Part shown: in pieces, positions 55,036 to 64,000 of the stretch
Numbering within the stretch: the stretch's first letter is position 1
How the letters are laid out: each line of letters opens with the position of its first letter
DNA from: Skermania piniformis
GTDB lineage: Bacteria > Actinomycetota > Actinomycetes > Mycobacteriales > Mycobacteriaceae
DNA length: 64,000 bases
Assembly: GCF_019285775.1 (NCBI RefSeq)
Contig: NZ_CP079105.1
Span: 2,542,001-2,606,000 of the forward strand
Reading direction: 5' to 3'
Notes under the pieces: generated by a model
Told to the model about the DNA's origin: nothing
Databases searched by the model: none
What the model saw: only the letters and a program-made list of their open reading frames with translations
Position numbers and translations under genes: made by a program

Positions 55036-58000
55036 TCAGCTCTCCTCGAAACCGGATTGATCGAATTTCAGCGTCGTCGCGTTCTCCGACACCGTGCGGA
55101 TCCGGCCGTCGTCGAACCCGGCCGGCGCCGTCGCGCCGATCTCCAATCGCACCTCCAGCGCGACCCCGGGCTGGGCCGCGAGATGTTGCAGGACCTCGCC
55201 GGCGATCTTCGAGAAGTCGGCGGCGTATCGGTCCGGGTCGAGGGCCGCCACACCGAAGTACCGGGTTTTCGGGCGCGGACCGGCGGGTTCTCCCCCGCCG
55301 CCATGACCGGACCCCGTACCGGACGTCGGAGCGTCGTCGTCCGGTTCTCCCCTGCCGGCGTCGCCGTACTCGTCGATCTCCCGATCCCGCTGGGCACGTG
55401 CCCGTGCCGGTTCGATCAGCAGCGTGCTGTCGGTGATGTAGGGAACGTCGTCGTTATCGGTCGGCAGTACCAGGCCGACGTACTGCTCGCCGTCCCAGCC
55501 GTCGGCGATCCCGAATCCCTCCTGTTCCCACAGCAGCTGTTCGACCACCGACAGCACCCCGGCGTCGAGCACCGCGCGATCCCGCAGCCGGGCGAGATAC
55601 GTGTAGGTGGTGTAGAGGGTCCACAGCTCGCCGACGCTGATCTGCCCGTCGCGCAACCAGATCGACGACAGGTGTTCGTCGAGGTCGAACCGGATCAACC
55701 GCGCGGCCCGGGTGAGCACCAGTTGGTTCTGCTCCCGCGCGCGCTTGGCGGCGCGCTCGGCAAGGTTCTGCGTCGTTCCTTCCGCCTTGATCGCGGACAG
55801 CACCGGATGCGGCTGGTCCGGACCCTGCTCGGGATAGATCAGCCAGGTGTAGGTGTCGAGCAGCCTGGCCCGGACCGTCTCGTCGGCGCGCCGCTTGCGC
55901 TCCTCCGCCTGCGCCTTCTGCTGCGGCTTCAGATCGAGCGGGACGACATTGTCCACGACGTAGTTCCACGCCAGGTACTCCCGCGCCGCCGCCTCCAGCT
56001 CGGCCGACCGGGCGTGATCGGCGGCAAGGAAACACAGCGTGTTGCGGTAGGCCCGGGCGGCGCTGCCGCGATGTTCCAGCACGGCACGTGCCCAGCCGAT
56101 CGCGGCGGAGTCGTCCTTGCGTTTGCGGTCGTGCGGGTGCCCGGGCGGCACGATGACCAGGCGCGCCTCCTGGGTGTCCGGGACGTCGCCCGAGTCGGAC
56201 GGGGCCGCGTGCACCGCCACGAATCCGTCCGCCGACGTGCCGCGATGCTGGCGCAGCCGCTGCTCGATCTCGTGCCACACGTCGTCGACCTGCAGTTGCT
56301 CGGCGTAGTCGCGGGCGGCTCGGGTCGTGTTGGCCTGCGTGTCGAACCAATAGCGTGGCCCGTCGCTGTAGAGGTAGGTCGAGGTGTTCGCCAGGTTGTC
56401 CAGCGCCGCATGGAAGTTGCCGGGAACATCGCCCGGGATAGCCGCGCCGAGGAAGATCCGGCTCTTGTCGACGCCCTTGTGCGCGGTGTCCAGCGTCGGG
56501 GTCGCACCGAGGAACACCGTGCGCGCCAGCCGCCGCGCCACCCGGCGCTTGCCGAACAGCTCGGGATTGCCGTTGTCGACCTGCACCGGAGTGGAGTTGG
56601 CGCCGTCGACGTCCGCGTCGATGATCGCCTTCCACTGATCGGACAGATACCCGGTCAGCTCGGTCAGCACCGGATCGGTGTCCAGCGGCACCGTGCCGGG
56701 CAGGATCAGCGGCGCCGCGTCGCCGGCCCGCCAGAGTTCGCCGACGATCGTATTCATCAATCGCAGGACGCCGCGGGTGCGCTGGAATCGGTCCAGCGTG
56801 GACCAATCCTCGTACAGCCGGTCGAACAGCTCCGGATGCACCGGGTACGCCCGTTTGATCCGATCGATGTAGGCCGGCTCGCGGACCTCCCGCGGGAACT
56901 GGGTTTCGTGCTGCCGATAGAACTTGACCACGGCATTCGCCGTCGTGCTGATCTTGCCGAGCGCGCCGCCGTCCGGCGGAACGAACAGCCGCCTGCGCAC
57001 GATCTCGAAGCTCTCCTCCGAATTCGCCGAACGCCACTGGTCGGCGGTCCGGCGGACTACGTTCTGCAAGCGGCGCAACGCCTCTCGACCGTACTCGCCG
57101 CCCACCTCCTCGTCGCTGGCGCCGGTGTCGTCGGTGGCGTCGTCGGACGCCGGGATCGAGATGACCACCTGGATGCCCGGGACCGTCGCCGCCGCCTCGG
57201 TCAGCGTCTGGGCGAAGGTGAACTGGGTGTCGAACGTGCCCGCGGGCAGGTTGTCCCGGTCGTAGAGCTGTCGGGCGTAGGCAACCCATTCGTCGACCAG
57301 GATGATCGCCGGGGTGTAGAGCTCGAACAGCTCGCGCAGCGTGCTGCCCGGATTGGTGCCGGCCCGATCGGATTCGGCGACGAGCTCGTAGGCGTCGGCG
57401 CCACCGAGGCCCCACGCGAGGCGACCCCACAAGGTGTTGAGCTCGACGCCGCCGGCCTCGAGTCGCGGCTCGGCAGGCGGAATATCGTTGCCTACCAGGG
57501 CAACCCGCTGGATCCGACCCCGGACGGAATCGAGGTCGATGCCGGCGAGCAGCTCTTGAAGCTCCTGTGGGTACTCGATCAGCGGGCGGCCGGAGGCGAG
57601 GTGCCACAGGGCCAGCATCGAGTGCGTCTTGCCGCCGCCGAAGTTGGTCTGCAGGTTGATCACCGGTGAGGCGTTGCGGTCGCCGGTCATCCGCTTGGCC
57701 ATCCGGGTGATCAGGTCACGCAGGCCGCCGGTCAGATAGGTGCGCCGGAAGAATTCGACCGGGTCCGCGTACTCGGGGTCGCCCTCCCCGCGCGCGACGT
57801 TGGCCAGGTTCGCGGCGAACTCGGCGGCGTGGAAGTTGCCGCTCGCCACATCCGGGTGGGGTGAGAGCACCTCCCGCCAGGGTGGCAGATTGTCCGAGCC
57901 GACGGTCGTCACGCCGGCCACCTTGGCGACCCGGCGATCCTCCTGGTCCAGCGACACCCGCCGCAGGTCGACCCGCAAGGCCTTGACCTCGTCGGCGCCG

Positions 58001-62708: not shown

Positions 62709-64000
62709 TCAGAACGGAGCCTCGCCCCGTTCCCACATGTCGGCCCAGCGCAGCCGCGTGTCCTGCATCGGCAATCCACCGAGATCGAGCCGGCCGAACG
62801 CTTCCCGCACGTAGCGCAGCCGATCGTGATCCGGTCCGTCCGGACTCACCTCGACCAACGCGAGCCGGTGTCGCTCGCCGAGGTTCTTGCCGTGGATGAG
62901 TTCGCTGTAGGTGACCGTGACCGAGTCGGAACCGGCGATCCGGCCCTTGACCTCGAGATGGATGTCCGGGCCGTTCGATTGTCCGGACTCGATATCGAAT
63001 CCCTTGTTGTTATGCGGCATCTCGGTGGGTATGCGGCCCAGCCGGCGCTCGGCGGACAGCACCGCCCGTACTGCGCGCCGCTCGACTTCCTCCGTGGCCC
63101 GCACCTGCGCCGCGGGCGCCGGCCGGATCAGCCCGACCGGCAGAATCAGCGCCGCAGCGACCACCCGCGGAGGTTTCGCCGACAGCTGCATCTCCTGATC
63201 CAGGCGTGCCGTCCGCTCGATCAATCTCCGGTCCAGTTCGTCTGCGGTGGATTCCATTCGATCCGGACTCACCCGGACGCGCTGCGTCCGGCCCGCCGCG
63301 ATCTCGTCGCGGAGCCGGCCCGCCTCGCTGTACAGGTAGTTGATCTGTTGCAGCAGTCGCGCCCGGACGGCGGACTTCGTCCGCTCGAGGTGCGGTACCA
63401 GCTGAGCCCGTACCCGGGCCACGTGGTCCGGCTGGGCGTGCTGCACAGCCCAATCCACAGCCAACGCCTCGACCCCGGGAGCGAGCCATTCCGCGGCGGC
63501 GGCCCGCCGGCCGAGCTCGGCATGCTCGGCCGGCAGCGGATGAACGTCCAGGTAGGGCGCGACTCCGGCGTCGACGGCCGCGCCGTCCGGACGCAGCATG
63601 ACGTACGAGAACGCCTTGCTGACCGTCGTACCGGTGCCGTCGACGATCTCGGCGGTGAGCGCGACCAGCAGCGCAGGCCGGGTGCCGGCGTCGTTGTCGT
63701 CGAGCAGAATCGTCCCGGCGGTCAACGCCGCACCGTTGCGCTCCACGGTCGCGTCGAGAACGGCGTCCAGCAGCGCATGTCCCGGGGCGAGCAGCTCGGC
63801 CGGCCGCTCCCCCGCGCGCTCCCGCAGCGAGGGCTCGAACGTCACTCGCTCGTATCGATCGACCACCGGCCCGCTCGACCGAGCCGCACGTCGGCGGTTA
63901 CGGAGCAGCTCCGGAACGTAGGTCACCTCGTACCGGCCTCGCTCGCGCCGACTCATCCGTCCGCCCAGCTCGGCGAATGCAGTCAGAAAAAAGTTCTCGA
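62709..64000 (-). CDS. SNF2-type helicase C-terminus with DUF3883 domain (5' end beyond window)
   Basis: The frame stays open to the window edge, so about 430 residues of the C-terminus are seen. The first visible residues (FFLTAFAELGGRMSRRERGRYEVTYVPELLR) match the post-helicase region of DUF3883-containing SNF2 helicases. An ~250-residue helical region follows, then DUF3883 (NKGFDIESGQSNGPDIHLEVKGR ... VTYSELIHGKNLGERHRLALVEVS), an endonuclease-like fold with D/E-x-K. An ATG at 63956 is not taken as the start. It is the probable helicase of the Hma-like module, followed by the methylase and ATPase beyond the HNH gene. Confidence 0.8.
   Translation of the reverse strand, partial: ENFFLTAFAELGGRMSRRERGRYEVTYVPELLRNRRRAARSSGPVVDRYERVTFEPSLRERAGERPAELLAPGHALLDAVLDATVERNGAALTAGTILLDDNDAGTRPALLVALTAEIVDGTGTTVSKAFSYVMLRPDGAAVDAGVAPYLDVHPLPAEHAELGRRAAAAEWLAPGVEALAVDWAVQHAQPDHVARVRAQLVPHLERTKSAVRARLLQQINYLYSEAGRLRDEIAAGRTQRVRVSPDRMESTADELDRRLIERTARLDQEMQLSAKPPRVVAAALILPVGLIRPAPAAQVRATEEVERRAVRAVLSAERRLGRIPTEMPHNNKGFDIESGQSNGPDIHLEVKGRIAGSDSVTVTYSELIHGKNLGERHRLALVEVSPDGPDHDRLRYVREAFGRLDLGGLPMQDTRLRWADMWERGEAPF

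Follow-up and report, generated by a model that had tools for sequence, protein, structure and literature searches.

What kind of system separates tsf from pyrH on the chromosome of Skermania piniformis, and how are its genes controlled? The window analyzed here, a 64,000-nucleotide stretch (bases 2542001-2606000 of a one-contig genome of 4.23 Mb), ends inside a cluster of large minus-strand genes in which the initial annotation had seen the end of a helicase, a DUF1156 methylase, and a DUF499 ATPase, the trio of the helicase-methylase-ATPase (Hma) defense family. All three are present according to Pfam and PADLOC. From their sequence and that of the neighboring region, we consider it likely that this is an Hma defense system lying between tsf and pyrH, that its genes are co-repressed by a divergently encoded helix-turn-helix (HTH) protein acting at 16-bp palindromes, and that its helicase, HmaA, is truncated at the N terminus. 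Positions are those of the window, counted on beyond 64000 where needed.

The hmaC gene (55036..58392, minus strand) codes for 1,118 amino acids, in which a Swt1-like HEPN domain is fused to a DUF499 AAA+ ATPase (Pfam HEPN_Swt1, 8e-27; DUF499, 1.4e-30). Upstream of it, hmaB (58392..61172, minus strand) codes for a DNA methylase with the motifs DPFAGGG and DPPY (DUF1156, 3.9e-30), and hmaA (65972-62709, minus strand), of which the window holds 62709..64000, codes for 1,087 amino acids of an SNF2 helicase with a C-terminal NOV_C PD-(D/E)XK nuclease. The helicase end inside the window matches NOV_C (PF13020, 6.5e-13), which we take to be the former DUF3883. Extension of the sequence past 64000, to 65972, completed the protein with SNF2, ResIII, Helicase_C, and NOV_C domains, so SNF2 helicase motifs are present upstream of the window end. 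The profile searches for DUF1156, DUF499, and DUF3883 and for defense systems all gave strong matches, with PADLOC scores of 2.2e-259 for HmaC, E=0 for HmaB, and 1.8e-87 for HmaA from the window-cut part alone.

The catalytic motifs of the three proteins all match conserved columns in alignments of 36 to 39 rows that include the S. piniformis locus. The HEPN R-x4-H of HmaC is intact (R in 35/36 aligned rows, H in 36/36), as are its Walker A and B motifs (Walker A K in 36/36 rows), and conservation is similar for the nuclease E-x-K of HmaA (35/36, one gap), its helicase DEAH (34/36, two gaps), and the DPPY of HmaB (39/39). With three PADLOC matches and intact motifs, the proposed membership holds, and the assignment to an Hma system of a described kind, also called Type-1 BREX-related (BR), with a Swt1-like HEPN on the ATPase, is well supported by sequence. 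DUF3780, the marker of Type-2 BR systems, was not matched among the scanned proteins, no search having been aimed at it. By analogy with the family, we can predict that the locus blocks phages.

Divergent from hmaA and also beyond the window lies a plus-strand gene (66014-66391) whose product is an XRE-type HTH protein (Pfam HTH_3, 2.2e-10); with this gene included, the Hma island reaches about position 66391. In Skermania, Tomitella, and Gordonia aichiensis, homologs have the same divergent arrangement with hmaA, and in Gordonia sp. UBA7599, the fifteenth linked locus, the homolog is found behind hmaC. From five loci we derived a 16-bp palindromic consensus, GCACAACNNGTTGTGC, and operator-like copies of it occur at both hmaA and hmaB in S. 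piniformis and at hmaC too in relatives. The hmaA site (65979-65964, minus strand, beyond the window) lies between the HTH gene and hmaA, behind a -10-like TAATGT (65987-65982, minus strand). At hmaB, the copy GAACAACGCGTTGTGT (61213..61228, minus strand, two mismatches) lies upstream of the gene, and GCACAACACGTTGTTC (61145..61160, minus strand) covers its first codons with one mismatch, the sole place in the genome with that few. Two sites 66 to 69 nt apart around the hmaB start were seen in all five consensus loci, the second having three mismatches in Skermania and Tomitella and matching only in its core in L096. The 17-kb locus contains the sequence CAACNNGTTG three times where 0.15 occurrences are expected, and 0/200 shuffles reached three; in the window it also occurs three times, once outside the locus, against 0.46 expected.

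The link between regulator and site was assessed in ten HTH-linked genomes that had not been used for the consensus. An hmaB site with at most two mismatches was present in nine of the ten and in none of 38 loci without an HTH found (Fisher 6e-9, not corrected for kinship); with at most three mismatches, the counts were 10/10 and 2/38. The 38 unlinked rows stand for 37 genomes, as L074 and L121 are duplicates, and no weak HTH homologs were found in these 38 loci. Sixteen duplicate loci were excluded from this operator table and six genomes with the HTH elsewhere were kept apart; in a seventh such genome, G355, HmaB is fragmented and there is no locus. The other two core genes gave comparable results at up to three mismatches, with an hmaC site in 10/13 linked and 0/32 unlinked loci and an hmaA site in 11/15 and 0/20. 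The hmaA count omits sites of L002, L132, and L133 that fall outside the automatically searched interval and includes a hit in Gordonia sp. UBA7599 that sits at -139 and may be due to chance. In 10 of 17 hmaA-type sites, the palindrome is immediately preceded by TA(A/T)TGTCT, and this position after a -10-like box makes it suited to repression.

Several observations weigh against such a regulatory reading. Genome-wide, there are 22 places with at most two mismatches, three of them within the Hma locus, compared with 59 for a reversed-pattern control, so the motif itself is not enriched and only its placement is unusual. L142 keeps its sites though its HTH match spans just 44 residues, L140 has no hmaA site (best, four mismatches), and L141 has no hmaC site (best, seven mismatches). 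In the six genomes with the HTH elsewhere, all of one genus, an hmaB site was found at up to two mismatches in 2/6 and at up to three in 4/6; we take this genus to be Gordonia, and the latter figure would fit action in trans. For the named loci, the absence of an HTH refers to the sequence stretch covered and not to the whole genome. Neither is the HTH family confined to Hma, since 51/72 HTH-positive genomes of the family have no HmaB match, and the HmaB-less neighborhoods L143, L144, L147, and L149 have no site beside the HTH gene. Last, in an HmaB tree made with a quick method, without L098 and too-short HmaB pieces such as L137, a single clade of 24 contains all 14 HTH-linked rows, so that the association amounts to about one gain plus losses and not to ten independent events, and two members of this clade, L070 and L110, have a three-mismatch site each although no HTH was found.

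The single clade, the weak sites of L070 and L110, and the location of one site inside the hmaB coding region would all suit another explanation, namely, that the palindromes serve as an mRNA element, a methylation target, or an insertion target, with the HTH linked to them by common descent only. We regard this as improbable, because the sites are kept before three genes despite the wide divergence of the core proteins (most of those in linked loci are ~50 to 77% identical to those of S. piniformis) and because two other clade members, L105 and L102, lack both the HTH and the site (best at hmaB, six mismatches). The regulator-operator pair, in our reading of the sequences, would have been gained about once and then retained through deep divergence.

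If the HTH protein does act at these sites, the direction of its action has to be considered. It could be an activator or a dual controller similar to the C proteins of restriction-modification (RM) systems, holding back the helicase and HEPN arm until the DNA is fully methylated. An XRE fold in an RM-like setting and the paired sites 66 to 69 nt apart around the hmaB start in five loci are compatible with such a role, and type II RM C proteins are described as acting oppositely at low and high concentrations (PMC12255303, in the part compared). We nevertheless find it unlikely, since a protein bound to the hmaA site, which immediately follows the -10-like box, would act as a block, and since the same site is present at the methylase gene, which leaves a delay between the arms not obvious. 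Co-repression is thus the reading that we keep.

The distribution of the regulator adds to this picture. HmaB was found in 39, the HTH in 72, and both in 21 of 351 sampled genomes of the family, and by coordinates the two genes lie within ~9 kb in 14 of those 21, S. piniformis included. Among 298 genomes sampled at the order level, the HTH (E 1e-12) was detected in eight, all of the same family, and HmaB in 16, eight of which belong to other families; since the HTH is confined to one family while HmaB is wider, the HTH-Hma pairing is a family feature in these samples. Members of the HTH family are also solitary near core genes (L143, L144, and L149 in group g47, with an rpsA-like gene named from reading; L145 and L147 in g9; L146 in g3), and the Hma-linked regulator may have been drawn from this chromosomal family. 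Of seven HmaB-less HTH neighborhoods, a site beside the HTH gene was seen only in L145 (one mismatch), L148 (two), and L146 (three). In L148 (4903-5843, genome G092), the HTH gene and the operator-like site are followed only by a C-terminal nuclease piece of hmaA, an apparent remnant of an Hma system that has been lost. In L134 (2819-6302, genome G231), hmaA matches come in three pieces with apparent frame breaks, alongside two tandem HTH genes.

The hmaA gene of S. piniformis has itself been altered directly behind its operator. In comparison with Skermania, it retains the promoter-like box and operator, lacks the next ~197 bp, and shows homology again from the DADG region on, so that the Shine-Dalgarno (SD)-like sequence, the start codon, and ~70 residues have been lost. 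We had considered MSAQHVV as the true start and dropped it, as Skermania has an SD-like AGGAGG and a GTG after the operator and several homologs begin there; the conserved stretch at MSAQHVV is more likely to be promoter plus operator. The missing part is matched in 24 of the 25 named loci that cover it, the exception (L073) matching only from residue 422. For the corresponding N-terminal residues of Skermania, the model shows a small beta barrel and, after it, a helix (pLDDT 79, pTM 0.49), with 19 of the 24 matched loci in the alignment of this domain. A structure search with it against the PDB gave no match at E of ≤0.001; the top ranks were ribosomal proteins, and lower ones included short SH3-like barrels such as the UvrD C-terminal domain (7egs_B, E 0.076). 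BR helicases are described as carrying an N-terminal TUDOR domain, and TUDOR domains are mentioned as methylation readers (PMC12839542, in the sections compared). Together with the barrel-like model, this makes it probable that the lost domain is SH3/Tudor-like.

A helicase without this N-terminal TUDOR departs from the Type-1 BR definition, and Type-2 BR helicases likewise have none according to the part of PMC12839542 compared; we still file the locus as an Hma/Type-1 BR member, since just one gene is affected, by a local deletion. Whether the system survived this loss is a second point at which readings diverge. The 5' deletion of hmaA and the insertion of the DUF222 gene may have inactivated it, with only hmaB and hmaC still expressed. 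Such decay, which we hold to be possible though somewhat doubtful, would agree with the retention of box and operator next to a lost SD/start region and ~70 codons, with the near-universal match of the N-terminal domain in the named loci, and with the foreign gene that splits the operon. On the other side, the remaining 1,087 codons are open and keep all helicase and nuclease motifs, and hmaB has its own upstream operator-like site behind the insert. In L133, one of 13 HTH-linked loci retrieved, the match likewise begins only at residue 79, yet the frame is long (1,324 codons). Moreover, the hmaA frame is opened by an ATG at 65972, inside the operator-like site and 10 bases behind the -10-like box, from which the truncated gene could start near-leaderless. 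Leaderless starts are common in mycobacteria. The core system is possibly impaired in S. piniformis. Domains of the kind that this helicase has lost have been proposed as readers of methylation marks, and the truncation is a natural experiment on what the domain does.

Along transcription, the order of the region is rpsB, tsf, HTH gene (plus strand), hmaA, DUF222-HNH gene (plus strand), hmaB, hmaC, pyrH, frr, cdsA, and rlmN, the last three named from reading their sequences. The annotated order helicase-methylase-ATPase is thus correct, as is the TGATG junction of the methylase and ATPase genes at 58394-58390, for which coordinates and translations place the hmaB stop at 58394-58392 and the hmaC ATG at 58392-58390. 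A long TTG frame (55036-59241) was rejected as the hmaC gene in favor of the ATG of this overlap. The idea of an uninterrupted operon did not stand, as the opposite-strand DUF222-HNH gene (61275..62615) splits the helicase gene from the methylase gene. Its DUF222 match is clear (PF02720, 1.2e-43), and its HNH-like end was read by eye from the translation, with no Pfam HNH hit and no match to a strict regular expression. We rejected it as a regular Hma part, since no relative was found in 35 named Hma loci (E 1e-5) or in 13 HTH-linked loci (E 1e-6), the short loci L100 to L129 lying outside this inspection. A recent copy of the other DUF222 genes of the genome (20 scattered profile matches, some of them pieces of one gene) was also rejected, at ~30% identity to the nearest. 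No convincing ends or target-site duplications of the insert were found. Three near-copies of CTGTCGGACAGCG are present at 62651-62704, between the ends of the DUF222-HNH gene and hmaA. The gene may be Hma cargo or a selfish element.

Gaps between core genes are variable in content in other genomes as well. Pfam was run on ten proteins from such gaps and identified AbiEii (2e-16) plus a PIN/MazE-like pair in L135, HTH_37 in L134, a globin in L137, an IrrE-like peptidase with HTH and a SEC-C protein in L132, and GmrSD_N (1.1e-28) in L141; the gap proteins of L138 and L142 gave no Pfam match. Among the 13 linked loci holding both genes, an hmaC site with up to three mismatches was present in 10 of the 11 in which the hmaB and hmaC matches lie at least 109 bp apart and in neither of the two in which they abut (0 and 10 bp). 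That the hmaC site tracks the gap is consistent with this Hma clade being an insertion-tolerant chassis, in which a cognate operator at each core gene keeps HTH co-regulation despite embedded cargo, an idea that we put forward tentatively and hold to be less than even.

As the initial annotation had supposed, the island lies upstream of pyrH (54932-54192, minus strand) with tsf (67402-66467, minus strand) and rpsB (68366-67353, minus strand) directly behind it, both outside the window. Comparison of pyrH neighborhoods covered 38 relatives (40 minus G029 and G034, which had no true pyrH match): tsf and pyrH are ~28 to 315 bp apart in 36 of them, which identifies the Hma island as an insertion between core genes, absent from this gap in the relatives. 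The remaining two carry 3.2 and 1.6 kb of other, unrelated genes there: an SMP-30-like and a TetR-like gene in L054 (13956-15550, genome G012) and a START-like gene in L055 (1573-2307, genome G028), all named from reading. The further suggestion of an integration hotspot is weakly supported by these two relatives. As a general Hma hotspot we rejected it, since only 1 of the 35 named Hma loci (flanks of up to 10 kb, several shorter) lies behind tsf. In Skermania sp. ID1734, rpsB and tsf are followed by an acyltransferase-like gene and then by the HTH gene, hmaA, and hmaB, with which the contig ends; the HmaB of this strain is the sister of that of S. piniformis in the tree. Given this shared tsf-side order and the sister HmaB, the insertion is probably older than the divergence of the two, and the position of the ID1734 locus behind tsf, the side from which it is known, probably reflects shared descent.

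A GC-rich hairpin sequence read by eye behind tsf is retained, although a scan for promoter and terminator consensus sequences there found nothing, and a pyrH -10-like motif, GGGCAGGATAGG (54988..54999, minus strand; motif GGCAGGATA), is retained downstream of hmaC, 56 to 67 bp before pyrH. GGCAGGATA or a close form precedes pyrH in 17 of the 38 relatives and not in 21. The Hma system would therefore have landed with the hairpin behind tsf on one side and the pyrH promoter on the other. There was no tRNA within the window that could be an attachment site and no clear shift of GC composition along the island.

Following the division of labor in the family literature, HmaB would methylate host DNA, HmaC would assemble a scanning complex, the HmaA helicase-nuclease would destroy unmarked DNA, and the HEPN RNase would be a last-resort effector. 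The divergent XRE HTH protein is predicted to bind GCACAACNNGTTGTGC in the interval that separates its gene from hmaA, at hmaB, and also at hmaC where hmaC does not abut hmaB, and so to co-repress the system gene by gene; in S. piniformis, a loss of DNA just behind the operator would have left the helicase without its N-terminal domain. Control of Hma is undescribed in the open-licence PMC literature that we searched, where no report of a regulator or operator of Hma or of DUF499 systems was found, and "XRE" is absent from the main text of the BR paper (PMC12839542). Relative to that literature, the predicted regulator-operator module is new, the Hma core being already known. Such a pair makes the timing and cost of a HEPN-armed defense testable, and it would explain how Hma loci take up embedded genes with co-regulation kept.

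The closest known system is Hma itself (Payne et al. 2021, PMC8565338), which has the same hmaA, hmaB, and hmaC trio with matching profiles; here, we find in addition the XRE regulator with operator-like sites, the N-truncated hmaA, and the embedded DUF222-HNH gene, while the paper's account, in the part compared, has no regulator. Type-1 BR systems (Rakesh and Krishnan 2026, PMC12839542) share the HEPN-DUF499 ATPase, the DUF1156 N6-methylase, and the Snf2 helicase with a C-terminal PD-(D/E)XK nuclease, and differ in the N-terminal TUDOR of their common helicase architecture, absent here. The target of the methylase is disputed between these two sources, as m5C in the passages of Payne et al. 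and N6-adenine in those of Rakesh and Krishnan; PADLOC labels HmaB a DNA-adenine methylase. The HEPN-DUF499 RM neighborhoods of Anantharaman et al. 2013 (PMC3710099) share the Swt1-family HEPN-DUF499 AAA+ fusion and the SNF2 helicase-DUF3883 fusion, and their description, as far as compared, includes no regulator or operator, unlike the present locus. Hma-embedded candidate systems (PMC12111858, in the part compared) are likewise encoded between Hma core genes; the DUF222-HNH gene differs in being without relatives in the 35 named and 13 HTH-linked loci and is known here from its sequence. On the regulatory side, the combination of an RM-like locus, an XRE HTH, and palindromic sites at the promoter of the latter is a C-protein-type arrangement, for which we do not claim C-protein membership. 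BrxR/CapW, RptR, and the RM C proteins, as presented in the parts of PMC12255303 compared, are also small DNA-binding proteins encoded with a defense system and with sites at their own promoters. BrxR/CapW are WYL HTH proteins, whereas the one here is of the XRE type, and RptR, an alpha-helical dimer, has a 6-bp TAGCTA site, whereas here a 16-bp palindrome is repeated before separate core genes.

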